From Christiangramia sp. OXR-203 (GTDB lineage: Bacteria; Bacteroidota; Bacteroidia; Flavobacteriales; Flavobacteriaceae), in contig NZ_CP139698.1 in NCBI RefSeq assembly GCF_034372165.1, positions 248,001 to 312,000 on the forward strand: 64,000 nt of DNA. Reading direction: 5' to 3'. Shown one piece after another: positions 37,604 through 62,742 of this stretch. Below the pieces are notes generated by a model, which was given only the letters and a program-made list of their open reading frames with translations, was not told the DNA's origin and made no database searches. Position numbers and translations under genes: made by a program. Position 1 is the stretch's first letter, and each line of letters starts with the position of its first letter.

Positions 37604-37630
37604 AATTTCAATTAATTACAAATATTAGGA

Positions 37631-37663
37631 AAGCCTGAAGTCTGGAACTTCAGGCTTTTTTTA
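37631..37663 (+). terminator. rho-independent terminator after pgi
   Basis: A perfect 10-bp stem (AAGCCTGAAG/CTTCAGGCTT) around a 7-base loop is followed by a T run. Confidence 0.92.
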
Positions 37664-38050: not shown

Positions 38051-40585
38051 ATGAGGAAATTATTACTCTTAGCGATGTTCTTAACATCTGCTACGATTTT
38101 TGCTCAAGGAACTGTTACCGGTGTGGTAATGGATTCCCAAACATCAGGTCCACTTCCTGGAGCTAATGTAATGGTAGTTGGTACTAACAATGGTACAATG
38201 ACAGATTTCGACGGAAACTTCACTTTGAAGGTTGCAGAATCTGAAGGTACTATTAAAATTACCTTCGTAGGTTACACTTCTAAGGAAGTAAAATTCAATG
38301 TTACTGGCGACACTCAGGATCTAGGACAAATCGTTCTGGGTGCAGATGATAACGCATTGGATGAGATCGTTGTAACAAGTTTCTCACTTGCTATCGACAG
38401 AAAAACACCAGTAGCTGTTTCAACTATTAGTGCTGCAGAGATCGAAACCAAGATTGGTAACCAGGAATTTCCTGAAGTGCTAAAATCTACTCCTGGAGTA
38501 TATGCTAACAAAGCCGGTGGTGGTTTTGGTGATGCAGAGCTTCGTATGAGAGGTTTTGAAGGTGAAAACATCGCAGTAATGATTAATGGTGTTCCTGTAA
38601 ACGACATGGAAAATGGTCGTGTATACTGGAGTAACTGGGCAGGTCTTTCTGATGTAACCAGAACTATGCAAACTCAAAGAGGTTTAGGTGCTGCTAAAGT
38701 TGCTGTTCCATCTATCGCTGGTACGGTAAACGTTGTAACTAAAACTACAGATGCTGAAAAAGGTGGTAGCATCTACGCTGCAACTGGTAATGATGGCTAC
38801 ACTAAGTTTGGTGCTACTGTATCTACAGGGAAGTCTGAAAATGGACTTGCTGCAACAGTATCTGCTTCGAGAACAGTTGGAGATGGTTATGTAGATGGTA
38901 CTGAATTTATTGGGTATAACTACTTCGTAAACATCGCAAAAGAATTTGGTGAAGATCATGAACTTTCTTTCACTGCTTTTGGTGCACCACAAAGACACGG
39001 TCAGCGTCAAAACAGATACACTATCGAAACTTACAGAGAGAGCGAAAGAGGTATCAAATTTAACGGAGACTGGGGTTACTTAAACGGTCAGGTTACTCAA
39101 ATCGAGGATAACTTCTACCACAAACCACAAATGTCTTTAAACCACTATTGGGATATTAACGAGAATACTGAATTATCTACTGCACTTTACGCTTCCTTTG
39201 GAACAGGTGGAGGTGGTGGATGGGCCGGAACAAACAAGTTTGGTCTTGATTCTAAATACAGAGATGGTTACCTACAACCGGTAAATCTTGATCTAATCGT
39301 AGATGAGAACATTGAAAGAGGAGCTGATGGTTCTGAAACTATTTTAAGAGCTTCTAGAAACGACCACAACTGGTACGGTGCACTTTCTACTTTATCTACA
39401 GATATTACAGATGATATCGAACTTCTTGCAGGTATCGATTTAAGATACTACAAAGGAGAGCACTTCCAGGAAGTTACAGATCTTCTAGGTGGACAGTACT
39501 ATTTTGACGATTCTAACGTAAACAATCCTGTAAACCTTGCAAAGGTTGGAGACAAGATTAGCTACAACAATGACGGTATCGTTCTTTGGGAAGGTGGATT
39601 CCTTCAGGGAGAATATTCAAAAGATGATTTAGATATCTTCGTTTCTCTTGCAGCTTCGAACACATCTTACAAGCGTGTTGATTACTTCAACAACCTTGAT
39701 TCAGATCCTAACCAGGAATCTGATTACGCACACTTCTTTGGATACCAGATCAAAGGTGGAGCGAACTACAACTTCACTAGAACTAGTGGTGTATTCGCAA
39801 ACATTGGGTACTTTGAAAGAGCACCATTCTTTGATGCTGTATTCCTAAACTTTGTAAACGACCTTAACCCAGACGCTGAAAATCAAAAGATCTTTAGTAC
39901 TGAACTTGGATATACTTACAGAAGCTCTGTATTGAGAGCTAACGTAAACGTTTACAGAACTAACTGGAGAGACAGATCTTTGATCTACTCTTATAACAAT
40001 CCTGATGGTTCTCTTGGTGTTGCAAACATTTTGGGTGTAAATGCAATTCACCAGGGTCTTGAACTTGATTTCGAATACCGTCCTTTCGAGGAACTTTCTA
40101 TCACAGGTTTTGCTTCTTTCGGTGACTACAGATGGGAAAGTGATGTAACAGGAGTACAAATCTTTGACGAAGAGCAGAATCTTATTGATGAGATCAACCT
40201 TTTCATAGAGGATACTAAAGTAGGTGGTACGCCACAAACTACTGCTGGTCTTGGAGTAGACTATGAGTTCCTAACAGATATGAGATTAAGAGCTAACTAT
40301 AACTACTTCGGTGATTTCTGGTCAGATTTTGATCCGGTAAGCCGTACGAATCCTGATGCTGGTGAGACCTGGAAACTTCCAGATTTTGGAACACTTGATG
40401 TAGGTCTTTCTTACGATTTCTCTGTAGCTGGATTTGATGCTGCTTTGAATGCGAACGTTTACAACATTACAGATACAGAATATATTGCTAACGCACAGAA
40501 TGGTCTTCAGAACAACGCACGTACTGCACTTGTATGGTACGGTTTCGGAAGAACTTACACTGTAGGAGCTAAACTTAACTTCTAA
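38051..40585 (+). CDS. TonB-dependent receptor with CarboxypepD_reg-like N-terminal domain
   Basis: This 844-residue outer-membrane receptor has a signal peptide (1-19, before QGTVTG), a CarboxypepD_reg-like domain (about 20-95), a plug (about 105-230 with LRMRGFEGENIAVMINGVPV and WSNWAGLSDVTRTMQTQRGL) and a barrel to residue 844 (AKLNF). Codons ending in C (AAC, TAC, TTC, GAC) are more frequent than in neighbouring genes, which hints at very high expression. It is related by eye to the second receptor at 45715. A lipoprotein follows after 10 bp, as in SusC/SusD-type pairs, but the partner is not a SusD. Substrate unknown; the surrounding nucleases suggest nucleic-acid fragments. Confidence 0.88.
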   Translation: MRKLLLLAMFLTSATIFAQGTVTGVVMDSQTSGPLPGANVMVVGTNNGTMTDFDGNFTLKVAESEGTIKITFVGYTSKEVKFNVTGDTQDLGQIVLGADDNALDEIVVTSFSLAIDRKTPVAVSTISAAEIETKIGNQEFPEVLKSTPGVYANKAGGGFGDAELRMRGFEGENIAVMINGVPVNDMENGRVYWSNWAGLSDVTRTMQTQRGLGAAKVAVPSIAGTVNVVTKTTDAEKGGSIYAATGNDGYTKFGATVSTGKSENGLAATVSASRTVGDGYVDGTEFIGYNYFVNIAKEFGEDHELSFTAFGAPQRHGQRQNRYTIETYRESERGIKFNGDWGYLNGQVTQIEDNFYHKPQMSLNHYWDINENTELSTALYASFGTGGGGGWAGTNKFGLDSKYRDGYLQPVNLDLIVDENIERGADGSETILRASRNDHNWYGALSTLSTDITDDIELLAGIDLRYYKGEHFQEVTDLLGGQYYFDDSNVNNPVNLAKVGDKISYNNDGIVLWEGGFLQGEYSKDDLDIFVSLAASNTSYKRVDYFNNLDSDPNQESDYAHFFGYQIKGGANYNFTRTSGVFANIGYFERAPFFDAVFLNFVNDLNPDAENQKIFSTELGYTYRSSVLRANVNVYRTNWRDRSLIYSYNNPDGSLGVANILGVNAIHQGLELDFEYRPFEELSITGFASFGDYRWESDVTGVQIFDEEQNLIDEINLFIEDTKVGGTPQTTAGLGVDYEFLTDMRLRANYNYFGDFWSDFDPVSRTNPDAGETWKLPDFGTLDVGLSYDFSVAGFDAALNANVYNITDTEYIANAQNGLQNNARTALVWYGFGRTYTVGAKLNF

Positions 40586-40595
40586 ACACAACACG

Positions 40596-42314
40596 ATGAA
40601 AAAGACATTTTATGTACTAATGGCTTTTGTAGGTCTGGCTTTAACTAGCTGTGAGCCAATGGAAGACATTCATGACGAGATCGACAACGATCTGGATAGC
40701 CAGCTTGCTGTTGCTGAAAGAGATTATGTACTTACTGAGGATGATTATGAAGAACTTGGACAGAACTTTCCAAACTTCGGTTCAGTAGAAGATGCAAGAA
40801 CTTTGATTCCTTCTTTACTTTCAGACCTATACCCAACTTATGGTGCAGGTTCAATTATTAATGTTGGATTCGATCTTTTCGATCCGCTTAGAGTTCAGGA
40901 CTATTCAGTATCTAGCTCAGACTACGGTATGATCGATCTTTCTACAGACTATTTCTCTGGAATGGGAGATGTTGCAGATTTTCTTGACGCGAAATATCCA
41001 CAGGCAGAAGATGGTGAGTATGTTAGACTAACTTACAATATTCTTGCTGAAGAGATCGCTTACGAGCTTTCTGCCGATGATTTTGATGTAATTGGAGACG
41101 AACTTGGAGATGTTTATCCAGATCCAGCATCTAGTGCTGCTCAATACAGCAACTTCGATAGAAGATCTGATAGAGACGCTTACTGGAGTAACGATATGAT
41201 CGTTGAAGCTCTTGGTGTAGCTATTTCTGAAGAATTTGGAGATATCGCCGGTCAGCAGTATAACGTTACTTACGCTATCTATGATGGCAGCTCAGGAACT
41301 GAAAGCATGACTGTTCAGTTTGATGGTAATACTTATGTAGCTGTTGGTGGAACTTCTTATGAGATCAGTAGTGAAGATTATGATGCTATTGGTGATGAAT
41401 TCGCTACTGCATATCCTGGACCAGCTGGAAATGCTGCCCAGTTTGGAAGTTTTGACGTTAGAGAAACTAGCGATAACTACTGGAGCGAAGACATGCTTTT
41501 AGAAGCTTTTGCTTTCGTAATTACTAGTGAATTTCCTGCAGCTCAGGATGGAGATCAGTTTGTGTTGACTTACAGAGTTTACAATGGTTCTGTAGCTACT
41601 ATCGTGGTAAACCTTGTTCTTGACGGTGGTGCTGTCACTATCGATGAAGATGCTTCAGTTTCGACTATTGAAGAAACTAAAGTATTTGCTTACACGAACG
41701 GAGACTGGGATGAGCCTTACATGCTACCTGAAAATTCTTATACTGAAGAATTCGGTCAGCGTTTCAGCAACTTCGGAGACGAGGATGAAGCTCTTGCTAA
41801 AATCGCGATCTTCTTAGGAAGAGAATTCCCTTACGCTGAAGAAGGTGAATACAAAGCTGTTGCATATCGTTTCTACAACGGTGAAGCGACTGTAACTGAG
41901 TACGCCAACTTCGTATTCGAAGGTGGAGACTGGATGGCTATTCCTAGTGTAATTTCAGACGCACTTCAGTTCGGATATGAAGATGGAATGTGGGTGCCAG
42001 ATAATACCATTAACTATACACTTACTTCTGCTGATTACTCTATTATTGCTGATGCACTTTCAGATAATACTGAACTTTCAACGCAACTTGCAAGTGTAGA
42101 TCGTTATGGTAACTTCGACCGTCGTCCGGGAGCTAGTGCTTACTGGAATGATGATAATCTTTTATTAGCTATGCAAGCGCTTCTTAATGAAATCGCTCCA
42201 AATGCTGAAGAAGGACAGAAGTACTTACTTACTTTTGATATCTATAATGGATCGAATACTACAGAAAGCCTAAGCCTTATTAAAGAAGGTGGAATGTGGG
42301 TAATCAACCAGTAG
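40596..42314 (+). CDS. repeat-containing surface lipoprotein, receptor partner
   Basis: I do not recognise the family of this 572-residue lipoprotein. The signal ends in a lipobox LTSC with Cys19. The mature part consists of about six degenerate repeats of 80-110 residues. Each begins with a pattern like YELSADDFDVIGDEL, continues with a YSNFDRR...AYWSNDM block, and ends with a YNVTYAIYDGSSGTES block. The clearest copies are at about 153-250, 251-345 and 465-572. It is very acidic. No SusD-type TPR helices are visible. It follows the TonB receptor by 10 bp and shares its optimised codon use, so it is probably the surface binding partner of that receptor. A terminator follows. Confidence 0.7.
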   Translation: MKKTFYVLMAFVGLALTSCEPMEDIHDEIDNDLDSQLAVAERDYVLTEDDYEELGQNFPNFGSVEDARTLIPSLLSDLYPTYGAGSIINVGFDLFDPLRVQDYSVSSSDYGMIDLSTDYFSGMGDVADFLDAKYPQAEDGEYVRLTYNILAEEIAYELSADDFDVIGDELGDVYPDPASSAAQYSNFDRRSDRDAYWSNDMIVEALGVAISEEFGDIAGQQYNVTYAIYDGSSGTESMTVQFDGNTYVAVGGTSYEISSEDYDAIGDEFATAYPGPAGNAAQFGSFDVRETSDNYWSEDMLLEAFAFVITSEFPAAQDGDQFVLTYRVYNGSVATIVVNLVLDGGAVTIDEDASVSTIEETKVFAYTNGDWDEPYMLPENSYTEEFGQRFSNFGDEDEALAKIAIFLGREFPYAEEGEYKAVAYRFYNGEATVTEYANFVFEGGDWMAIPSVISDALQFGYEDGMWVPDNTINYTLTSADYSIIADALSDNTELSTQLASVDRYGNFDRRPGASAYWNDDNLLLAMQALLNEIAPNAEEGQKYLLTFDIYNGSNTTESLSLIKEGGMWVINQ

Positions 42315-42334
42315 GTTCTAAACTCAATCTATAT

Positions 42335-42369
42335 AAACCTCTTATCTTCACGGTAAGAGGTTTTTTTTT
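42335..42369 (+). terminator. rho-independent terminator after the receptor-lipoprotein pair
   Basis: A perfect 10-bp stem (AAACCTCTTA/TAAGAGGTTT) around a 9-base loop is followed by a run of T. Confidence 0.9.
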
Positions 42370-42410
42370 GACTTAAAATGTCAGATATTTGCAGCCACAA
42401 TACACAAACT

Positions 42411-44048
42411 ATGAAAAAATATACCGGACTTTTTTTGCTGGCGCTCATGTTGGGTTGCTCAGGTGATGATGATTCAACACCAACTCCTACGCCACCAGTT
42501 GAAGAAGAAAATCCAGTAGCAACGGCAGATGAACTTTCTGCTGTTCAAAATGAAACTTATACTTTCAACAGAGCTATGCTTCTGGAAAATGATGTGCTTG
42601 TGGATAATGCGATCATTACTAGCATAGATACTGAAACTGAAGCAGGAGGAACGATCACAGATAATCGTGATCAAACCTATACTTATGAACCTGCTAACGA
42701 TTTCACAGGAAATGATACATTTTCTTATACCATCTGCGTACCTGGAGATTCCGATAGATGTTCCAGTGCTGTAGTTACCATTATCGTAGGTGACGCCGGT
42801 GAACCAATAGCGGCCGATGATAGTTATACTACCCAGGAAGGTAAAACCTATACTATTAGCAATCACCTTGATAATGACCAGGTGGTAGATAATGCTGAAG
42901 TTGCTTCCGTAGAAAGTACAAGTGGTAACGCTACAGTAACGCTACAGGATGATGGAAGTATTTTGTATGAACCAAATTCAGATTTTTCTGGTCAGGATAC
43001 TTTTACTTACACCTTGTGTGACGATGATGAGACTCCTGGTTGTTCTACTGCCACAATAACAATGACCGTCGAAGACGAAGGTTCACCGGTTGCTTCAGAT
43101 GATACTGTTGTAATTGAAGCTGGCACTTCCGAAGAAGTGATCACAAAACTTTTGGATAATGATGATCTAACTGATGATGCAACAATTTCTTCATTAGATG
43201 ATTCGGCAAGTAACGCGACCATCGTTTTGAATAGTGATGGCACAGTTACCTATACGCCACAATCTGGTTTTATGGGAGAGGATACTTTTACATACACCAT
43301 TTGTGATGATGATGCTGATGCAAGCTGTTCTACAGCTACTGTTACGGTAAATATCGTGGAAGCCGTAAAATTCAATGTTCCTGATGATCTTAAAGCTTAT
43401 TATTCAGACGCCAGTTTTACTATAGATCCAGACTTGCTGTATTCAGAGCTTTCAGATTTTACGAACGCGCAACACACGAACCGTCTTACATATACAGATC
43501 GTCATGATTATCTATATGATGCAGATGCTGCTCTTGATGATGAATCTATGGTAGTGTTGATCTACTCTGGGGAACTTAGACCAGATGATGAATTTCAGTT
43601 AGGAGATCTTGACGGTGATGAAAGTTTTAATACGGAACATATTTATCCTCAGTCTCGATTAAACACTGAAGAATCTGTGAGTGACCTTCATTTACTAAGA
43701 GTTGCAGATGTAGACATTAATTCTGAAAGACTTAACTACCCATTTACTGAAGGTAGTGGAGAATACAAGCTTGTAGGCGGTGATAGTTGGTATCCTGGAG
43801 ATGAATGGAAGGGAGATGTTGCCAGAATGGTAATGTATGTTAATCTTAGCTACGGCGATGATTTTGATGAAGTTGGAAATCTTGAACTATTCCTGAAATG
43901 GAACCGTGAAGATCCGGTTTCAGCCTTCGAATTACAGCGTAATGATGTGATTGAAGCGGCTCAGGGTAACCGTAACCCATTTATCGATAATCCATTCCTT
44001 GCTACTCTTATTTGGGGTGGTGATGCGGCGGAAAATCGTTGGGAATAA
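42411..44048 (+). CDS. surface lipoprotein endonuclease I with three Ig-like repeats
   Basis: This 545-residue protein should cut DNA (perhaps also RNA) outside the cell. The signal ends LMLGC (Cys16). A Pro/Thr linker (about 22-35) leads to three Ig-like cadherin-type repeats at about 35-125, 128-218 and 220-312. Each has an LDND-type strand start and a DTFTYTICDDD end with a cysteine pair. The C-terminal domain (about 320-545) is endonuclease I: catalytic His410 in FNTEHIYPQS, then SDLHLLRV, KGDVARMVMY and QGNRNPFIDNP. I chose the ATG at 42411 because it starts the lipoprotein signal; an upstream in-frame ATG at 42378 does not. It lies between two receptor pairs. Confidence 0.9.
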   Translation: MKKYTGLFLLALMLGCSGDDDSTPTPTPPVEEENPVATADELSAVQNETYTFNRAMLLENDVLVDNAIITSIDTETEAGGTITDNRDQTYTYEPANDFTGNDTFSYTICVPGDSDRCSSAVVTIIVGDAGEPIAADDSYTTQEGKTYTISNHLDNDQVVDNAEVASVESTSGNATVTLQDDGSILYEPNSDFSGQDTFTYTLCDDDETPGCSTATITMTVEDEGSPVASDDTVVIEAGTSEEVITKLLDNDDLTDDATISSLDDSASNATIVLNSDGTVTYTPQSGFMGEDTFTYTICDDDADASCSTATVTVNIVEAVKFNVPDDLKAYYSDASFTIDPDLLYSELSDFTNAQHTNRLTYTDRHDYLYDADAALDDESMVVLIYSGELRPDDEFQLGDLDGDESFNTEHIYPQSRLNTEESVSDLHLLRVADVDINSERLNYPFTEGSGEYKLVGGDSWYPGDEWKGDVARMVMYVNLSYGDDFDEVGNLELFLKWNREDPVSAFELQRNDVIEAAQGNRNPFIDNPFLATLIWGGDAAENRWE

Positions 44049-44081
44049 ACTTTTCAATTAATAATTCTTATATAAAGATAT

Positions 44082-44516
44082 ATGTATCAAACAGTTCAAT
44101 TTATTCACTCCTACTGGGCCTATCTGGTTCTAATAATGCTTTTGATTGCAACCTTCAATGCTATTATTGGTTTTGCGTCAAATAAGGAATACGGTGCGAC
44201 TAATTTTAGAATCGCATTATTCACCTTGATCGTTTCTCATATACAGTTGCTAATAGGAATAGTGCTTTACTTTACTTCTGGCAACATGGCCAGATGGGAA
44301 GGTGGAATGGGAGAAGTTATGGGTAATGATACTACCAGACTTTACCTGGTAGAGCATCCATTAATGATGATCATCGCGATTGCTTTGATCACTATTGGTT
44401 ATTCCAAACATAAAAAGAAACTTACTTCGAAGCCAAAATTCAAGATGCTGGCTATTTTCTACGGAATTGCTTTTCTCGTAGTATTGTCCAGAATTCCATG
44501 GAGTGCATGGTTTTAG
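44082..44516 (+). CDS. conserved four-helix membrane protein, possibly b-type haem binding
   Basis: This 144-residue inner-membrane protein has four hydrophobic helices at about 10-30, 43-64, 88-107 and 120-140. Histidines fall within or at the ends of helices (FIHSYWAYLV, VSHIQLLIGIVLYF, VEHPLMMIIAIA), a spacing that would allow haem b ligation. Flavobacterial homologues are, as I recall, sometimes named 'cytochrome B', but no function is established. The gene starts 33 bp after the endonuclease stop on the same strand and ends before a two-way terminator. Its link to nucleic-acid use is unclear. Confidence 0.6.
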   Translation: MYQTVQFIHSYWAYLVLIMLLIATFNAIIGFASNKEYGATNFRIALFTLIVSHIQLLIGIVLYFTSGNMARWEGGMGEVMGNDTTRLYLVEHPLMMIIAIALITIGYSKHKKKLTSKPKFKMLAIFYGIAFLVVLSRIPWSAWF

Positions 44517-44533
44517 TTGAAGAACATCATAAA

Positions 44534-44560
44534 AAAAGCCCGGTTTTAAACCGGGCTTTT
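44534..44560. terminator. bidirectional rho-independent terminator
   Basis: The arms AAAAGCCCGG and CCGGGCTTTT pair perfectly around TTTTAAA, with A and T runs on the two sides. It separates the plus-strand membrane protein gene from the minus-strand phosphatase gene and can serve both. Confidence 0.92.
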
Positions 44561-44561
44561 T

Positions 44562-45617
44562 TTATTCTACAGCTTTTATCAAATACAGGTATACGGGAAA
44601 ATGATCACTATAACCTGGCTGATAGCCTGAGCTACCATAAGTACGCATAGGATATCCGCGGTACTGGCCACCCTGTGTAATTAGATAAGGAGCGTTGAAA
44701 ATTCCGGCTTTATAATACTGAAATCCTTCAGAAGTTCTGTTCAATAAGCTTTCTGAAAGATAAAATTGATCGAATAAGTTCCAGGAATCACGATAAGCCA
44801 GTGTCCCGCGACCTCTTTTAAGCATGTTTTCCATAGGATTATACAGGTCTCCTTCTTTCAAATCCTGAATTTCGGCTTTAGTTTGTAGGAACTTTTTAAA
44901 GCTTTTATTGGTAGGATCATCGTTGAAATCTCCCATTCCAATAATTCTTGCTTTCGGGTCTTCCTGGTAGATGGAGTCAATAATACGTTTATTAAGCATA
45001 GCAGCTTTTTCGCGTTTGTAACTGCTTTTTGCTTCACCACCAGACCTGGAGGGCCAGTGATTTACTATAAAATGAGTTTCCTGCCCCATGGCAATTCCGC
45101 TAACCACTAATTGGTCTCTGGTATAATCCCTTTTATCCTCATCATAGATCATTAATTTTCTGGCCTGGGAATTCGTTACTACAAATGACTGCGATCGATA
45201 CAGCAGTGCCACATCGATGCCTCGCTCATCTGGAGAATCGTAATGCACGATCCTGTAATTGAACTGTGCAAGGTTGGGATGTGCGATAAGATCTTCTAAA
45301 ACCTTCTTATTTTCAATTTCACAAAGACCTATAACCAATGGTGGCTTTTTAGATTCCTGAGTTCCTATTTCAGCAAGCACCCTGGAAATATTCGCTATTT
45401 TAACATCATAGCGTTCTTCGGTCCAGTTGTCTTTACCCAGAGCAGTCCTGTCATCATCAAACGTGAGGGTGTCGTCTACGGTGTCGAACAAATTCTCTAC
45501 ATTATAAAAGGCAATAGTTTCAATATGGTAATCTCTCATATTCTGACAATATAGCTTTTCTGAAGTTGTCAGGTATAGCCCAATTACCAAATAAATCGCT
45601 GTAATATATTTCTTCAA
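44562..45617 (-). CDS. secreted endonuclease/exonuclease/phosphatase-family protein
   Basis: This 351-residue hydrolase should split phosphodiester or phosphomonoester bonds, on DNA, nucleotides or phospholipids. A signal peptide (1-25, before QNMRD) is followed by the EEP domain. It shows FYNVENLFDTVDD, the metal glutamate in GLCEIENK, NHWPSRSGG, the catalytic GMGDFNDDP and the final SDHFPVYLYL. The start is a TTG followed by AAG AAA; a stop blocks nearby ATG choices. It is divergent from the second TonB receptor across 97 bp, so both promoters share that gap. Next to a lipoprotein nuclease and two receptors it fits a role in nucleic-acid or phosphoester scavenging. Confidence 0.88.
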   Translation of the reverse strand: MKKYITAIYLVIGLYLTTSEKLYCQNMRDYHIETIAFYNVENLFDTVDDTLTFDDDRTALGKDNWTEERYDVKIANISRVLAEIGTQESKKPPLVIGLCEIENKKVLEDLIAHPNLAQFNYRIVHYDSPDERGIDVALLYRSQSFVVTNSQARKLMIYDEDKRDYTRDQLVVSGIAMGQETHFIVNHWPSRSGGEAKSSYKREKAAMLNKRIIDSIYQEDPKARIIGMGDFNDDPTNKSFKKFLQTKAEIQDLKEGDLYNPMENMLKRGRGTLAYRDSWNLFDQFYLSESLLNRTSEGFQYYKAGIFNAPYLITQGGQYRGYPMRTYGSSGYQPGYSDHFPVYLYLIKAVE

Positions 45618-45714
45618 TTTTTTATCATTTTAGACCGCAATTAAAGTACTGGTTTTTTGATTATTACAGAAAAATGATTTAAAATTATTCCATATTTCGA
45701 CGACGAGGCACTGA

Positions 45715-48498
45715 ATGAATAAAACCTTTTTTTGGGTGTGTCTGTTTTCTTTGGTTTATCAAAGTATATACGCCCAAACTCCGATCATAAATGGTCGGAT
45801 TATAGACGCAATCACCCAGGTGCCCTTACCCCAGGTTAAAATTGCAAGAGAGAATTCTTTTAATGAGACGTTCTCAGACCCTGAAGGAAAATTTTCTTTG
45901 GGAATGGAAAGTATTTCAGAAAATGAAATTATTATTCTAATAACGAGAGCGGGTTATCTTAGTAAACGAATACCTGTAAAGAAGAATGGAATCCTGGAGC
46001 TGGATCTTTCCACTATTTCACTTAGTCCAGATTCCAGTCGCGATCTCACATTTCAGAATACGATAAGTCTTTCAGATGTAGATGTCATGGAGGATGAAGC
46101 CGACTTTGATAATATTTCAGGTATTCTTCAATCCACCCGGGATGCTTATCTCAGCGCTGCTGCCTTTGATTTTAGTCAGACTTTTTACCGGGTAAGGGGC
46201 CTAGGTTCAGAGTATGGCAGCTTAATGATCAACGGAGTTGAGATGAACAAAGCTTTTGATGGCAGACCTCAATGGAGCAATTGGGGTGGTCTTAATGACG
46301 TGCAGAGAAACCAGGTTTTTAGTCCAGGGGTATCTCCTTCAGAATATGGTTTTGGAGGTCTTGGTGGTACTACGAATATGATCATGCGTGCATCACGTTT
46401 CGCAAGTGGTGGTAGAATTACTGCCTCGGGTTCTAACCGTAGTTATACCGGAAGGCTTATGGCAACTTACGCAAGTGGCGAGAAAAATAATGGCTGGTTT
46501 TATGCATTTTCTATAGGACGCCGTTATGCAAGTGAAGGTTATATGGAAGGAACTCCGTTCGACGCAAACTCTATTTACCTGGGTCTGGAAAAGATCATTA
46601 ATAAGGAGCATGCACTTAATTTCACTGCGATCTATACGCCAACACTTCGTGGGAAATCTGCTCCACTCACAGAAGAGGTTGTTGAAATTAAAGGAAAACG
46701 TTACAATCCATACTGGGGTTTCCAAGAGGGTATGATTCGTAATAGCAGGATGAAAGAGATCAAGGAGCCAATTTTTATGCTTAATCATTTCTGGAATCCT
46801 TCTGAAAATATACAAGTCAATACTAATTTATCTTACCAGTTTGGTGAAGTATCTAGCACCCGAATAGATTATGGAGGGACTAGCTTTGTTGATTTTGATT
46901 CGCAACGCACTTACCTGGGTGGAGCTTCGAATCCAGATCCAGTTTATTACCAGAAATTACCAGGATATTTCCTGAGATTTGAAGGATTCGAAGATTTTCA
47001 GAAAGCTTATCTCTCGGCAAATGAATTGAGAAATAATGGACAGCTCAACTGGGCAGACATTTATGAAGCCAATGCCAATCCCGATGCTTTGTACGCTCTG
47101 GCGGCAGATGTCAATCAGGATCAAAGTTTGATTGCTAACAGTATATTGAGCTGGCAATTATCTTCCAGTCTGCATCTAATTACTAGCTTCAAAGCTTCAT
47201 CTCTTAAAAGTCATAATTTTGGCAGGATCGAGGATCTCTTTGGAGCATCCAGTTTTCTGGACGTAGAGGTGTTTTCAGATTTTTCTCAGAATGACCTGCG
47301 CAATCCGGATCGAAAAGTTATAGAAGGGGAGGGTTATAAGTATGATTATAACTTAGAGGCTCAAACAGCTGAAGTTTTTGTTCAGCTTCAAAAGCAATGG
47401 AGAAGTATGGAAGTTAGTATCTCCGGGCAGGTTTCGACCTCAAGCTTCAATCGTTTTGGGAATTACCAGAATGAAGAGTTCACGGCCAATTCTTATGGTA
47501 GATCAAAGGATATCGATTTTCTTACTTCAGGTATAAAAACGAATTTACTTTATAAATTTTCTGGACGCCAAAGCCTGGAATTTAATCTGGCAGCCTTTTC
47601 TAAGGCACCATTGCTGAAGAATATATTTGTAAATCCACGCCAGAATAACGCTATTGCTCCCCAGGTTTCCGAAGAAATAATTACTGCTTCAGACCTTAGT
47701 TACCGCTATCGTACCAATCTTTTCAACTTTAGAATGACCGGCTACGTCCAGCACATAGCGAATAGCACCGAAGTTTCTTTTTATTATACAGATGGGTTGT
47801 CGGGCCTTGGTAGAGAGAATTCTACCGCTTTCGTTCAGGAGGTACTAACCAATATGGATAAACAATACCTTGGAGTTGAACTAAGTTCAGAATACCAGGT
47901 AACATCAACGATGAAGCTGAAACTGGCTGGAGGAAGCGGGCAGTTTTTATACAGCAACAATCCTGCTCTTAGCTTGTTCTCCAGTTCTTTTGAAGATTTG
48001 AATTATGAGCAATCATTCCTGAAAGGCTATCGCTTACCGGGTGGTTCGCAATCTGCCTTTCAGCTAGCTTTCGAATATAGAGATCCTGCATACTGGTGGT
48101 TCGGTATTTCACAAAATTACTTTACCGGCGCATTTATAGATGTGAGTCCGCTGAATAGAACCTCAAATTTTCAAAAAGATTACGATGGTTTGGAGATCGT
48201 GGAATACGATGCGGAAGTAGCAAGAGAATTATTACGGCAAGAGCAGTTTGATCCCTATTTCCTCACCAACATCATTGGGGGTAAAAGCTGGAGAATTAAG
48301 GATAAATATCTTGGTTTATTCGCTAGTATAAATAACGCACTCAATACCAATTTTAAAACCGGAGGTTACGAGCAGGCGCGGAATGCTAATTATAGAACTT
48401 TAAAAGTGGATAGGGATCGGGAGGTTCCAATCTTCGGAAATAAATACTGGTATGGGAATGGCACCAGTTATTTTGTGAATTTAAATCTTAGATTTTAA
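45715..48498 (+). CDS. TonB-dependent receptor with CarboxypepD_reg-like N-terminal domain
   Basis: This 927-residue outer-membrane receptor has a signal peptide (1-20, before QTPII), a CarboxypepD_reg-like domain (about 22-95), a plug (about 125-225 with FYRVRGLGSEYGSLMINGVE and PQWSNWGGLNDVQRNQVF) and a barrel ending in NLNLRF. Plug motifs match those of the receptor at 38051, so the two are paralogues. A DUF5689 lipoprotein starts 3 bp after its stop, and the EEP hydrolase gene lies divergently upstream. This grouping of receptor, DUF5689 and EEP hydrolase is, to my recollection, recurrent in flavobacteria. Substrate unproven. Confidence 0.88.
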   Translation: MNKTFFWVCLFSLVYQSIYAQTPIINGRIIDAITQVPLPQVKIARENSFNETFSDPEGKFSLGMESISENEIIILITRAGYLSKRIPVKKNGILELDLSTISLSPDSSRDLTFQNTISLSDVDVMEDEADFDNISGILQSTRDAYLSAAAFDFSQTFYRVRGLGSEYGSLMINGVEMNKAFDGRPQWSNWGGLNDVQRNQVFSPGVSPSEYGFGGLGGTTNMIMRASRFASGGRITASGSNRSYTGRLMATYASGEKNNGWFYAFSIGRRYASEGYMEGTPFDANSIYLGLEKIINKEHALNFTAIYTPTLRGKSAPLTEEVVEIKGKRYNPYWGFQEGMIRNSRMKEIKEPIFMLNHFWNPSENIQVNTNLSYQFGEVSSTRIDYGGTSFVDFDSQRTYLGGASNPDPVYYQKLPGYFLRFEGFEDFQKAYLSANELRNNGQLNWADIYEANANPDALYALAADVNQDQSLIANSILSWQLSSSLHLITSFKASSLKSHNFGRIEDLFGASSFLDVEVFSDFSQNDLRNPDRKVIEGEGYKYDYNLEAQTAEVFVQLQKQWRSMEVSISGQVSTSSFNRFGNYQNEEFTANSYGRSKDIDFLTSGIKTNLLYKFSGRQSLEFNLAAFSKAPLLKNIFVNPRQNNAIAPQVSEEIITASDLSYRYRTNLFNFRMTGYVQHIANSTEVSFYYTDGLSGLGRENSTAFVQEVLTNMDKQYLGVELSSEYQVTSTMKLKLAGGSGQFLYSNNPALSLFSSSFEDLNYEQSFLKGYRLPGGSQSAFQLAFEYRDPAYWWFGISQNYFTGAFIDVSPLNRTSNFQKDYDGLEIVEYDAEVARELLRQEQFDPYFLTNIIGGKSWRIKDKYLGLFASINNALNTNFKTGGYEQARNANYRTLKVDRDREVPIFGNKYWYGNGTSYFVNLNLRF

Positions 48499-48501
48499 TA
48501 T

Positions 48502-49881
48502 ATGAATAAAATATTTTTTATCATTTTTTTACTGGCTATGACTTTTCAAGCTTGTGTGCCAACAGATGATTTTGAAGTTCCAGAACTTGTAGAGGACAGT
48601 ATATCCATAGATGGAAATTTCACCAGTATTGTAGCAGTGAAGGGTAATTACAAAACAGAAACTGGTGAGATTCATAATTTCAGGGATACCGATACATGGT
48701 TTGAAGCATATGTTATTAGTGATGATTCTGGAGGTAACTTTTATAAAAAGCTCGTTTTACAGGATAAGGCTCAAAATCCTCAGTCTGGAATTCAAATTCT
48801 GGTTGATGACAATTCCCTGCATCAAACTTATAACTTCGGAAGAAAAGTTTATGTAAAGCTCGACGGTCTTAGTCTTGGATTTAATAATGGAGTTTTGCAA
48901 CTAGGTATTCAGAATAGGGGAGATGTGGTGGCAATTCCTTCTTCATTAATAGATGATTTTATTGTTAGATCTGAAATCACTTCTGAAATCATTCCGAAGA
49001 AACTTTCAATTTCTGAGTTTTCAGAAGAAACTAATAACCTATATGTAGAAGTGCATGACATCCAATTTGATATTAACCTGGTGCGTGAAGCAGAGAATTT
49101 TTCGTTCGCTTCTCATAGGTACGATGAGTATGATGGTGAAAGACAATTGGAAAGTTGTACAACCGGCGAGACCGTATTTTTAAGTACGAGCACCTATGCT
49201 AATTTCAGATCTTTGATGCTGCCCACAGGTTCCGGGAATATCAAAGGAGTTCTTAGCCGCAATTATTATGACGAACATTTTGTTCTAATTGTAAATGATC
49301 CAACCGCTCTCGATTTTTCCGGTGAGAGATGTGATGACCAGTTTTTCAAATGTGATTCTGAAGGTGATATTAGTAGAAATGTGGTCACGGAAGAGAATTT
49401 TGATGGTGTAACTTCCAATACAACACTTGCTGCCAGAAAATGGACCAATATCAATGTGAGTGGAGGGGAGAAACGCTTTACACCTACGATGGTAAACGGC
49501 AATCGTTTGTTGCGAATCTCTGCTTATAATACATTAGAGAATCCACTGGAAGCATGGCTGGTGTCCCCGGTGATCGATATCTCCAGTACCAGAGCGAATC
49601 TTGTGACCTTTGATCTGCTGGCTTCGTATGATAACGGCATGTTTTTAAAAGTGTATTTCACTCAGGATTTTACTGGTGATCCCAGAACTACGGATTGGAA
49701 GCTACTTGATGCTGCGATACCTTATGGACCATCAGGAGGTTCTGGTAATGTCTTCAAAACTTCAGAAATCGATATATCCTGTTTGCAGGGAAAAATTTGG
49801 ATTGGATTTAGATATTTGGGAGCCGCTCCAGATAAAACTACTACGTATGATCTCGATAATTTCAGAGTTATGAGTAATTGA
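48502..49881 (+). CDS. DUF5689 lipoprotein with C-terminal choice-of-anchor-type domain
   Basis: This 459-residue lipoprotein has a signal ending FQAC (Cys18). The DUF5689 region (about 30-270) begins after ISIDGNFTS and has the typical order VISDDSGGNFYKKLVLQDKA, GRKVYVKLDGLSLG, the mid block KKLSISEFSEETNNLYVEV and the end GNIKGVLSRNYYDE. It resembles an OB-like binding module seen next to nucleases. A jelly-roll 'choice-of-anchor J' domain follows at about 290-459 (KWTNINVSGGEKRFTP, WLVSPVIDISSTRANLVTF, TTYDLDNFRVM). It starts 3 bp after the receptor and probably forms its surface partner. Confidence 0.85.
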   Translation: MNKIFFIIFLLAMTFQACVPTDDFEVPELVEDSISIDGNFTSIVAVKGNYKTETGEIHNFRDTDTWFEAYVISDDSGGNFYKKLVLQDKAQNPQSGIQILVDDNSLHQTYNFGRKVYVKLDGLSLGFNNGVLQLGIQNRGDVVAIPSSLIDDFIVRSEITSEIIPKKLSISEFSEETNNLYVEVHDIQFDINLVREAENFSFASHRYDEYDGERQLESCTTGETVFLSTSTYANFRSLMLPTGSGNIKGVLSRNYYDEHFVLIVNDPTALDFSGERCDDQFFKCDSEGDISRNVVTEENFDGVTSNTTLAARKWTNINVSGGEKRFTPTMVNGNRLLRISAYNTLENPLEAWLVSPVIDISSTRANLVTFDLLASYDNGMFLKVYFTQDFTGDPRTTDWKLLDAAIPYGPSGGSGNVFKTSEIDISCLQGKIWIGFRYLGAAPDKTTTYDLDNFRVMSN

Positions 49882-60738: not shown

Positions 60739-62742
60739 CTATTTATAACTCCTTGTTTTTACTTCGATATCCTCGTAATCAAGTTCCTCCTTATGTAGTA
60801 TTGCATCGGCCGGTTTTCCGGTGTATTCCCATGCAGCTACGTACATAAAGTTCTCGTCATCTCTTAGTGCTTCTCCTTCTTCGGTTTGATGCTCTTCTCT
60901 AAAGTGACCACCACAGCTTTCTTCCCTGTGTAATGCATCCTTAGCGAACAGTTCTCCAAGTTCAAGGAAATCTGCTACACGACCTGCTTTTTCAAGTTCA
61001 GCATTCATTTCATTTGCGGTACCTGGTACTCGAACATCTTTCCAGAATTCTTCTCTCAAAGCCTGAATTTCAGAAATGGCTTCCTTCAATCCGGTCGCAT
61101 TTCTTGCCATTCCCACTTTATTCCACATGATCTTTCCTAAGATCTTATGGAAATGATCTACAGATTTTGTTCCCTTGGTATTGATCAGTTTTTCCAGTTG
61201 AGCTCTAACTTCATTTTCAGCTTCTTCAAATTCAGGAGTATCAGTTGGGATCGCTCCGGTTCTGATATCTTCTGAAAGTGCATGGCCAATGGTATAAGGA
61301 AGTACAAAATATCCATCTGCAAGACCTTGCATCAAGGCTGAAGCTCCCAGTCTGTTGGCTCCGTGATCTGAAAAGTTAGCTTCCCCAATCGCGAAACATC
61401 CTGGAATTGTAGTTTGTAAATTATAATCAACCCAAACACCACCCATGGTATAATGTACCGCAGGATAAATCATCATTGGAGTTTCGTAAGGATTCTGATC
61501 TACGATCTTCTCGTACATCTGGAAAAGGTTACCATATTTGGCTTCCACAACTTCCTTACCTAATTTCTTAATATCGTTATCTGATGGATTATCGAGCTTT
61601 CTGGTAGTAGCTTCCTCTTTACCATATCTCATGATAGCAGAGCTAAAGTCCAGATAAACTGCTTCTCCAGTTTTATTTACCCCAAAACCAGCATCGCAAC
61701 GTTCCTTAGCTGCTCTGGAAGCAACATCACGCGGCACCAGGTTACCAAAAGCTGGATATCTTCTTTCCAGGTAATAATCTCTTTCTTCTTCCGAAAGTTC
61801 GGTCGGTTTTTTCTTACCGGCACGAATTGCTTCAGCGTCTTCTTTTTTCTTCGGAACCCATATTCTACCATCATTCCGAAGTGATTCAGACATCAACGTC
61901 AATTTTGACTGGTGATCTCCTGAAACCGGAATGCAGGTTGGGTGAATTTGGGTAAAGCAAGGGTTTGCGAAATAGGCTCCTTTTTTATGGATTTTCCAGC
62001 TAGCTGTTACGTTACTTCCCATTGCATTGGTGGAAAGGAAGAATACGTTTCCATATCCCCCTGAAGCAATTACAACTGCATGTGCAGAATGCCTCTCCAA
62101 TTCACCAGTAACCAGGTTTCTGGCAATGATTCCTCGAGCTTTTCCATCTACTTTTACAACATCAAGCATTTCATGCCTGTTGAAAGTCTGGATCTTTCCA
62201 CGGTTGATCTGGCGGTTCATTGCTGAATATGCTCCAAGCAATAATTGCTGCCCGGTTTGTCCTTTCGCATAAAAGGTTCTTGATACAAGAACTCCACCGA
62301 AAGAACGGTTATCCAACAGTCCACCATATTCACGTGCGAAAGGAACTCCCTGCGCCACGCACTGGTCAATAATATTCCCAGAGACTTCTGCCAGTCGATA
62401 AACATTGGATTCTCTCGAACGGTAATCACCACCTTTGATGGTATCATAGAAAAGACGGTAAACAGAGTCACCATCTCCCTGATAGTTCTTTGCTGCATTG
62501 ATCCCTCCCTGAGCTGCGATCGAGTGAGCTCTACGTGGAGAATCCTGGTAGCAAAATGTTTTTACGTTATATCCAAGTTCTGCAAGCGTTGCTGCTGCGC
62601 TTCCCCCGGCCAGTCCTGTACCCACTACGATCACGTCTATATTACGTTTATTCGCAGGGTTTACAAGATTGATATCGTTCTTATGATTAACCCACTTTTC
62701 TGCCAATGGGCCTTTAGGTGCATTTGATTCAAATATTCCCAT
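60739..62742 (-). CDS. sdhA: succinate dehydrogenase/fumarate reductase flavoprotein subunit
   Basis: This 667-residue subunit oxidises succinate in the citric acid cycle. The FAD fingerprint [12 protein letters not shown] is at about 39-50, and His73 in [11 protein letters not shown] is the covalent FAD site. Further landmarks are [50 protein letters not shown], and the FAD/substrate block [18 protein letters not shown]. The length exceeds the roughly 590 residues of proteobacterial SdhA and fits the Bacteroidota branch. It starts 3 bp after sdhC. Confidence 0.96.

Follow-up and report, generated by a model that had tools for sequence, protein, structure and literature searches.

A TonB-type receptor, a DUF5689 lipoprotein, and a frequent nuclease neighbor as a candidate DNA-uptake gate of Bacteroidia

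How transforming DNA crosses the outer membrane in Bacteroidota is an open question, and it is raised by a seven-gene block of Christiangramia sp. OXR-203. The block lies in a window of 64,000 nucleotides, the whole stretch of DNA that was analyzed (contig NZ_CP139698.1, positions 248,001 to 312,000), from an organism presumably of the family Flavobacteriaceae and the class Bacteroidia. We named its genes, in order, T1, L1, endonuclease I, the 144-amino-acid (144-aa) gene, EEP, T2, and L2. All seven were found where a first-pass annotation had placed them; it had read them as one candidate locus for scavenging extracellular nucleic acid or organophosphate. What, then, is the block for? We consider it probable, if far from settled, that EEP, T2, and L2 form an outer-membrane DNA-uptake gate in the natural-transformation pathway of Bacteroidia, alongside which T1 and L1 are a paralogous pair and endonuclease I an accessory surface nuclease.

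The candidate gate comprises three genes. T2 (45715–48498, forward strand) is a diverged TonB-dependent receptor, recognized by a Plug domain above its cut-off, by alignment, and by its place in a receptor tree; no barrel family of Pfam matched. L2 (48502–49881, forward) lies directly 3′ of T2 across a 3-bp gap and is a predicted surface lipoprotein with a DUF5689 part (172 bits; 48601–49341, forward) and a jelly-roll domain. EEP (44562–45617, reverse strand) is a DNase-I-fold nuclease (PF19580, 388.5 bits, above cut-off) that diverges from T2 across a 97-bp gap; it has a signal-peptide-like start, no lipobox was seen in it, and its location is probably periplasmic.

The link to transformation comes from Riemerella anatipestifer. 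Locus L150 of strain CCUG25054 is arranged as ComEC, a gene of 145 aa, one for a carboxyl transferase, and EEP, then divergently T2 and L2, an order that fits tags RA0C_RS04895 (ComEC), 04900, 04905, 04910, 04915, and 04920 of ATCC 11845, the match being made by gene order and domains. Window and Riemerella proteins align at 32% identity for T2 (969 columns, E 1e-150), 27% for L2 (E 3e-31), and 38% for EEP (E 1e-88), and these alignments argue strongly that T2 and L2 are orthologues of RA0C_RS04915 and RA0C_RS04920. A transposon screen that scored 16 genes found RS04915, and markerless deletion of either RS04915 or RS04920 brought transformation below detection, making each essential (Huang et al. 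2021, PMC8459023). As speculated by those authors, RS04920 binds DNA and RS04915 moves it across the outer membrane; they report detecting no pilus homologues in two Riemerella species and propose a new machine (PMC8459023). RS04910, the EEP neighbor, has one mention in the main text, where it serves as a transcription control (PMC8459023), and the screen, of 3,000 mutants, was probably not saturated. R. anatipestifer mutants of tonBA and tonBB were likewise reported to have reduced transformation (PMC8383284). Among the matches listed in the full text of open-access PMC, nothing on T2–L2–EEP appeared beyond the Riemerella papers, and DUF5689 and RA0C_RS04915 returned one paper each.

The window pair matches the Riemerella pair in adjacency and gene order, receptor and DUF5689 lipoprotein each being orthologous, and both ComEC and DprA are encoded in the window genome as well. 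The two differ in that the window copy abuts T1–L1 and endonuclease I, and the transformation role is one shown in Riemerella only (PMC8459023). ComEC was found near the module in Riemerella, where T2–L2 lie four genes from comEC, but not in the scanned Chryseobacterium-type locus. A 637–646-aa gene upstream of EEP in loci of that type had been a candidate for ComEC, and was rejected as it proved to be Rho in L102, the one scanned. In the window, succinate dehydrogenase genes (60739–62742) are some 11 kb away from T2–L2, and in R. anatipestifer (L150, 1657–4400) they are some 6 kb away from T2, which may reflect a shared old neighborhood or chance.

Do the seven genes belong together in relatives? 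The family sample held 60 Flavobacteriaceae genomes, one per genus and the window genome included, with more than 280 bits taken as a strong T2 match. Such a match was present in 55 of the 60; the search found none in G004, G030, G032, G046, and G052. T2 surroundings were read in the 54 of these 55 that are not the window's. T2 had a divergent EEP as its nearest upstream gene in 47 of 52 testable loci and L2 as its nearest downstream gene in 52 of 53, an association of these three genes above chance. Among the exceptions is L077, where EEP and T2 are separated by an endonuclease I bearing a type IX secretion system (T9SS) tail. Upstream of T2, relatives of the 144-aa gene (35/54 stretches) outnumbered T1 (21/54) and L1 (8/54); endonuclease I, which they also outnumbered there, was present in 4 of the 54 T2 stretches.

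T1 is tied to a block named TDO-M23-PGI, usually lying behind the PGI gene; the TDO and PGI names of these genes are ones we presume. Six T1 stretches were read from genomes chosen for having T1 away from T2: none held EEP or T2, L1 followed T1 in five, and one (L091) has a 144-aa relative. G032, a single-contig genome in which DprA is still present, retains T1, a 144-aa relative, and EEP (L224) and is without T2–L2. G037 (L221) matches the window in gene order from T1 as far as the start of T2, apart from one extra gene. Checking co-occurrence of the seven genes across flavobacteria, as had been suggested, therefore gave a divided answer, in which EEP–T2–L2 is conserved but T1–L1 belongs to a neighboring block. 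What had been taken for one seven-gene locus is, by synteny in relatives, two modules: module B (EEP, T2, L2; 44562–49881), the better conserved, and module A (T1, L1, endonuclease I; 38051–44048), in which T1–L1 are sometimes accompanied by endonuclease I. On this synteny, a single seven-gene operon was rejected, with weak support from terminator-like hairpins. These lie between the upstream PGI gene and T1 (37627–37661, forward), between L1 and endonuclease I (42335–42363, forward), and where the EEP gene ends (44529–44565, reverse); all are pattern matches, and as the region has 10 of them against 8.2 (standard deviation 3.0) in shuffles, their number is not evidence.

Module B extends beyond the family. 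With a T2 match set at more than 290 bits, 56 of 60 Weeksellaceae genomes had one (none in G211, G224, G232, and G234). Among the best 30 of these 56, read with 1.5-kb flanks, EEP was next upstream in 25/29 and L2 next downstream in 30/30. A further 63 named T2 loci, found with a Weeksellaceae query and mostly from Chryseobacterium and other Weeksellaceae, with some from Flavobacterium and metagenome-assembled genomes, had EEP next to T2 in 61 of 62 testable cases and L2 in 63/63. The sole exception among those 62, from Elizabethkingia occulta (L193, 7247–9670 and the preceding gene), has open reading frames of 773 and 807 aa between EEP and T2. The family, Weeksellaceae, and named sets overlap. 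A less selected sample, of 148 genomes across the order with T2 called above 900 bits, had T2 in 42; a PF19580 protein occurred in all 42, and it was divergent and less than 1 kb from T2 in 31. The earlier counts came from better-placed sets, and this recount (31/42) ruled out EEP as an invariable partner of T2 and makes it a frequent one.

At the level of the class, 37 of 198 genomes matched the L2 profile at 140 bits or more, 30 of them outside Flavobacteriaceae and Weeksellaceae. Sixteen of these 30 distant loci, from 13 families, were read. Fifteen held T2, in each case with L2 immediately after it; EEP was divergent and next to T2 in 11 of the 16 and at most three genes away in 14. L266 is without T2 and EEP, and L273 without EEP within its stretch. 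T2–L2 thus occur in further families of the class, whereas homologues of RS04915 had been reported solely from Flavobacteriaceae (PMC8459023). In a quick tree of 59 receptors, with Shimodaira–Hasegawa-like approximate likelihood-ratio test (SH-aLRT) support only, a branch of support 100 separated 38 T2 from 21 T1 sequences and placed Riemerella within T2. Within the T2 clade, Weeksellaceae, the window's family, and other families were largely separate, a pattern that fits an old and mostly vertical descent of T2. The two receptors had been called paralogous, each with a lipoprotein after it, and both points stand: T1 aligns to residues 13–396 of the 927 of T2 at 31% identity and falls in a separate clade, and in the window L1 lies behind T1 and L2 behind T2.

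We then considered what L2 might bind. A whole-chain model had a predicted local distance difference test (pLDDT) score of 81 and a C-terminal jelly roll, for which the best structural matches were gingipain cleaved-adhesin, Eph ligand-binding, and CBM4 domains. Modeled alone, DUF5689 gave a predicted tandem oligonucleotide/oligosaccharide-binding (OB) fold (pLDDT 92; predicted template-modeling score, pTM, 0.90). Foldseek placed HIN-200 first, with 12 matches under E 0.001, then RPA70 with single-stranded DNA, BRCA2, and others. We take these 12, in part by their titles, to be HIN-200 DNA-sensor domains, and 49 of the 50 matches listed are, we presume, OB-fold proteins, most of them nucleic-acid binding. 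A sequence search of solved structures gave for L2 one match below E 0.04, a DUF4955 protein, in the C-terminal part; for T2, it matched the N-terminal domain only; and for EEP, it gave no match at E 0.01. The DNase-I-type residues, whose metal-binding and catalytic roles we assume, are invariant in 32 of 32 aligned EEP.

The pairing of an OB fold with an EEP nuclease for extracellular DNA is known from Vibrio Xds and the ExeM/NucH type, in which LTD, OB, and EEP domains stand together; in the window, the OB and EEP domains belong to different proteins. The EEP domain of the window is alone in its chain and, with a score of 27.4, is under the ExeM_NucH cut-off of 300. In Xds, LTD accompanies OB and EEP, and nuclease activity requires the OB part (PMC6746945). 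Among 57 L2 homologues, LTD matched in 7 at E 1 or better (best 1.4e-14), and two loci of relatives (L230, 2410–5823; L231, 3123–6536) hold 1,137-aa open reading frames that fuse choice-of-anchor-J, an EEP domain, and a T9SS tail. Taken together, and by analogy, L2 and EEP could be a split DNA-binding and cutting pair.

The knockout phenotype elsewhere, the fold class, and the frequent nuclease neighbor lead us to the view that the T2–L2 core handles DNA. In the proposed gate, L2, through its tandem OB fold, would capture DNA at the surface, and T2, a TonB-dependent barrel presumably energized by TonB, would pass it into the periplasm. There, EEP may nick, trim, or convert the incoming duplex, or clear DNA not taken further, and ComEC would then move one strand inward. 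Such a route would be independent of a pilus, and the window organism may itself be competent. As in uptake through a type IV pilus and ComEA in other Gram-negative bacteria, DNA would go to ComEC, but here a TonB-type barrel and an OB lipoprotein would replace the pilus and secretin.

Several observations weigh against the gate. On the side of the fold, the Foldseek template-modeling scores are about 0.3 of the query, which makes the OB assignment a statement of fold class and not of homology. The OB domain of the window is acidic (pI, the isoelectric point, 4.5; 20 K+R vs 38 D+E), unlike usual DNA binders, so this copy gives no indication of gripping DNA by charge; the other 27 aligned DUF5689 domains range from pI 4.6 to 9.1, and whole L2 proteins of the window's family are mostly at pI 4.1–4.9. 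On the genetic side, the word "complement" is absent from PMC8459023, and EEP is missing both from the 16 screen genes and from the markerless mutants that Table 2 of that article lists. Flavobacterium johnsoniae is said there to hold all homologues and was not transformable as tried (PMC8459023); it has homologues of PilB, PilC, PilF, PilQ, and PilT, which according to the authors may suffice for pilus-type uptake (PMC7965970). The tonB effect was ascribed by its authors to iron or nutrients (PMC8383284). DprA was absent from 2 of 5 T2-negative and 1 of 55 T2-positive family genomes, which is only suggestive (p = 0.016; p = 0.001 if a partial match in G030 counts as absent); the class sample (36/37 vs 152/161, p = 0.69) is uninformative, and the order sample (42/42 T2-positive vs 52/106 others) is confounded by relatedness and small genomes.

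The partnership with EEP also has exceptions that count against the gate. EEP was not beside T2 in 11 of the 42 order genomes, and 8 of these 11 belong to one genus, g61, of the window's family (G061, G077, G115, G172, G177, G182, G186, and G200; in G107 and G123 of the same genus EEP is adjacent). In these eight, the PF19580 protein lies 16–47 kb from T2 (six genomes) or on another contig (two). PF19580 proteins also occur in 54 of the 106 order genomes without a strong T2, and G032 has EEP in the absence of T2 and L2. The non-adjacency in 11 of 42 would fit an account in which T1–L1 and T2–L2 import an unrelated ligand, for instance a metal chelate, a peptide, or a glycan, with the nucleases as incidental neighbors. 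T1 often sits behind the PGI gene with no nuclease adjoining, and the L2 jelly roll resembles adhesin and carbohydrate-binding domains, as such an import would also have it. Yet EEP beside T2 in 47/52 family loci and 31/42 order genomes, together with the proximity of endonuclease I to the receptors (see below), is hard to call an accident, and the Riemerella knockouts lose transformation (PMC8459023); we regard import of an unrelated ligand as very improbable.

A further point against the gate is that the L2 family has been cited for effects on lipopolysaccharide (LPS) and O-antigen and for a live-vaccine deletion. R. anatipestifer L2 scores 590.8 against NCBIfam M949_1556 (NF052645; cut-off 475), and M949_1556 has been cited for a role in the antigenicity and virulence of R. 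anatipestifer CH3; the M949_1556 lipoprotein and RA0C_RS04920 seem to be one and the same member of the family. T2–L2 might then serve to build or export part of the cell surface, such as an LPS- or capsule-related component, and transformation would be lost indirectly. This account leaves unexplained the EEP gene beside T2–L2 in most relatives, the OB-type fold, and, in Riemerella, the placement of the pair so near to comEC, and we judge it unlikely, though less so than the import of an unrelated ligand.

We next turn to module A and the question of feeding. T1 (38051–40585, forward), the T2 paralogue, is a TonB-dependent receptor with CarbopepD_reg_2, Plug, and beta-barrel matches. Its partner L1 (40596–42314, forward) is a predicted lipoprotein with a lipobox-like LTSC in the sequence and no Pfam match at E 0.001; this copy has repeats, and several relatives have a choice-of-anchor-J-like middle domain instead. 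Endonuclease I (42411–44048, forward), with its start taken as the ATG at 42411 and not at 42378, is a predicted lipoprotein (GCSGDDD read in the sequence) with PF04231 at 109.5 bits (cut-off 25) and three Big_9 repeats. Its EH and NxxRxN residues, presumably catalytic, are invariant in five aligned endonuclease I proteins. It is followed by the 144-aa gene (44082–44516, forward), which encodes a membrane-type protein without a family; in several Chryseobacterium loci, a weak 144-aa relative adjoins a T1-like gene downstream of T2–L2.

The 3.395-Mb window genome has no PF04231 match besides endonuclease I. Across the family sample, 36 of 60 genomes carry PF04231, with 58 genes after merging of fragments. 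Eight of the 58, the window's included and from seven genomes, are found no more than about 10 kb from T1 or T2, where a uniform model expects 0.7; the resulting P of 5e-7 is overstated, since the eight cases are not all independent, some carriers being closely placed in the T1 tree. The link of endonuclease I to these receptors is nonetheless non-random. Among the distant loci, L265 has an endonuclease I adjoining EEP. In Vibrio cholerae, the endonuclease I Dns and the EEP protein Xds are needed for DNA as a phosphate source (PMC3212620), and deletion of dns raises transformation (PMC3879209); in F. johnsoniae, two PF04231 nucleases are induced on phosphate depletion (PMC8115612). Nearby nucleases would therefore fit both feeding and transformation control.

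The phosphate findings and the endonuclease I link speak for nutrient scavenging, in which surface endonuclease I would cut DNA, L1 and L2 bind the fragments, T1 and T2 import them, and EEP finish them in the periplasm to yield phosphate, nitrogen, or nucleosides; uptake for feeding and for transformation are, moreover, not mutually exclusive. Against this, the T2 and L2 orthologues are essential for Riemerella transformation (PMC8459023), and omission of phosphate lowers it (PMC8383284). The phosphate-induced receptors of F. johnsoniae sit with phytase, PhoBR, or Pus genes, with no EEP or DUF5689 in what the article describes and with the F. johnsoniae T2 tag not identified, and the orphan EEP-type Fjoh_0074 changes little there (PMC8115612). 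The likeness to SusCD loci and Pus systems, a TonB receptor and then a lipoprotein with hydrolases nearby, is limited too: T1 reaches 105.6 bits against a SusC/RagA cut-off of 368.25 and T2 has no match, no SusD family was among the matches of window genes or of L1 and L2 homologues, and there is no nucleoside transporter among the seven genes.

We therefore regard scavenging as unlikely for the block as a whole, if the least so of the alternatives to the gate, and it is most alive for module A. The first-pass annotation had combined two ideas, which fared differently. That receptors, binders, and nucleases here handle nucleic acid gains support from the orthology to transformation genes, the predicted OB fold of L2, the EEP gene by T2, and the endonuclease I link. 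For the core, the analysis does not support scavenging in the manner of a polysaccharide locus, given the Riemerella phenotype, and nothing in it speaks for organophosphate. T1–L1 and endonuclease I may still have a nutritional role, with which the phosphate-induced PF04231 nucleases of F. johnsoniae would fit; module A with its endonuclease I would serve DNA handling of a perhaps nutritional kind, and, on a weaker inference, the surface endonuclease more likely cuts DNA outside the cell, either as food or to present it to the gate.

The decisive knockout phenotype of the two Riemerella genes was known already (PMC8459023). New here are the frequent nuclease partner, a predicted OB-type fold for DUF5689, and a distribution wider than had been reported. 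As a tentative generalization, and one we hold with less confidence than the gate itself, Bacteroidia may own a pilus-free outer-membrane DNA translocon that arose early in the class, in which a DUF5689 tandem-OB lid covers a barrel driven by TonB and the gene of an EEP entry nuclease usually lies alongside; some flavobacteria would pair it with a second, paralogous receptor and an endonuclease I at the surface. A TonB-type receptor passing DNA would, if true, be unusual. These additions make of a two-gene hit list a testable machine, and they suggest which environmental bacteria may be competent.

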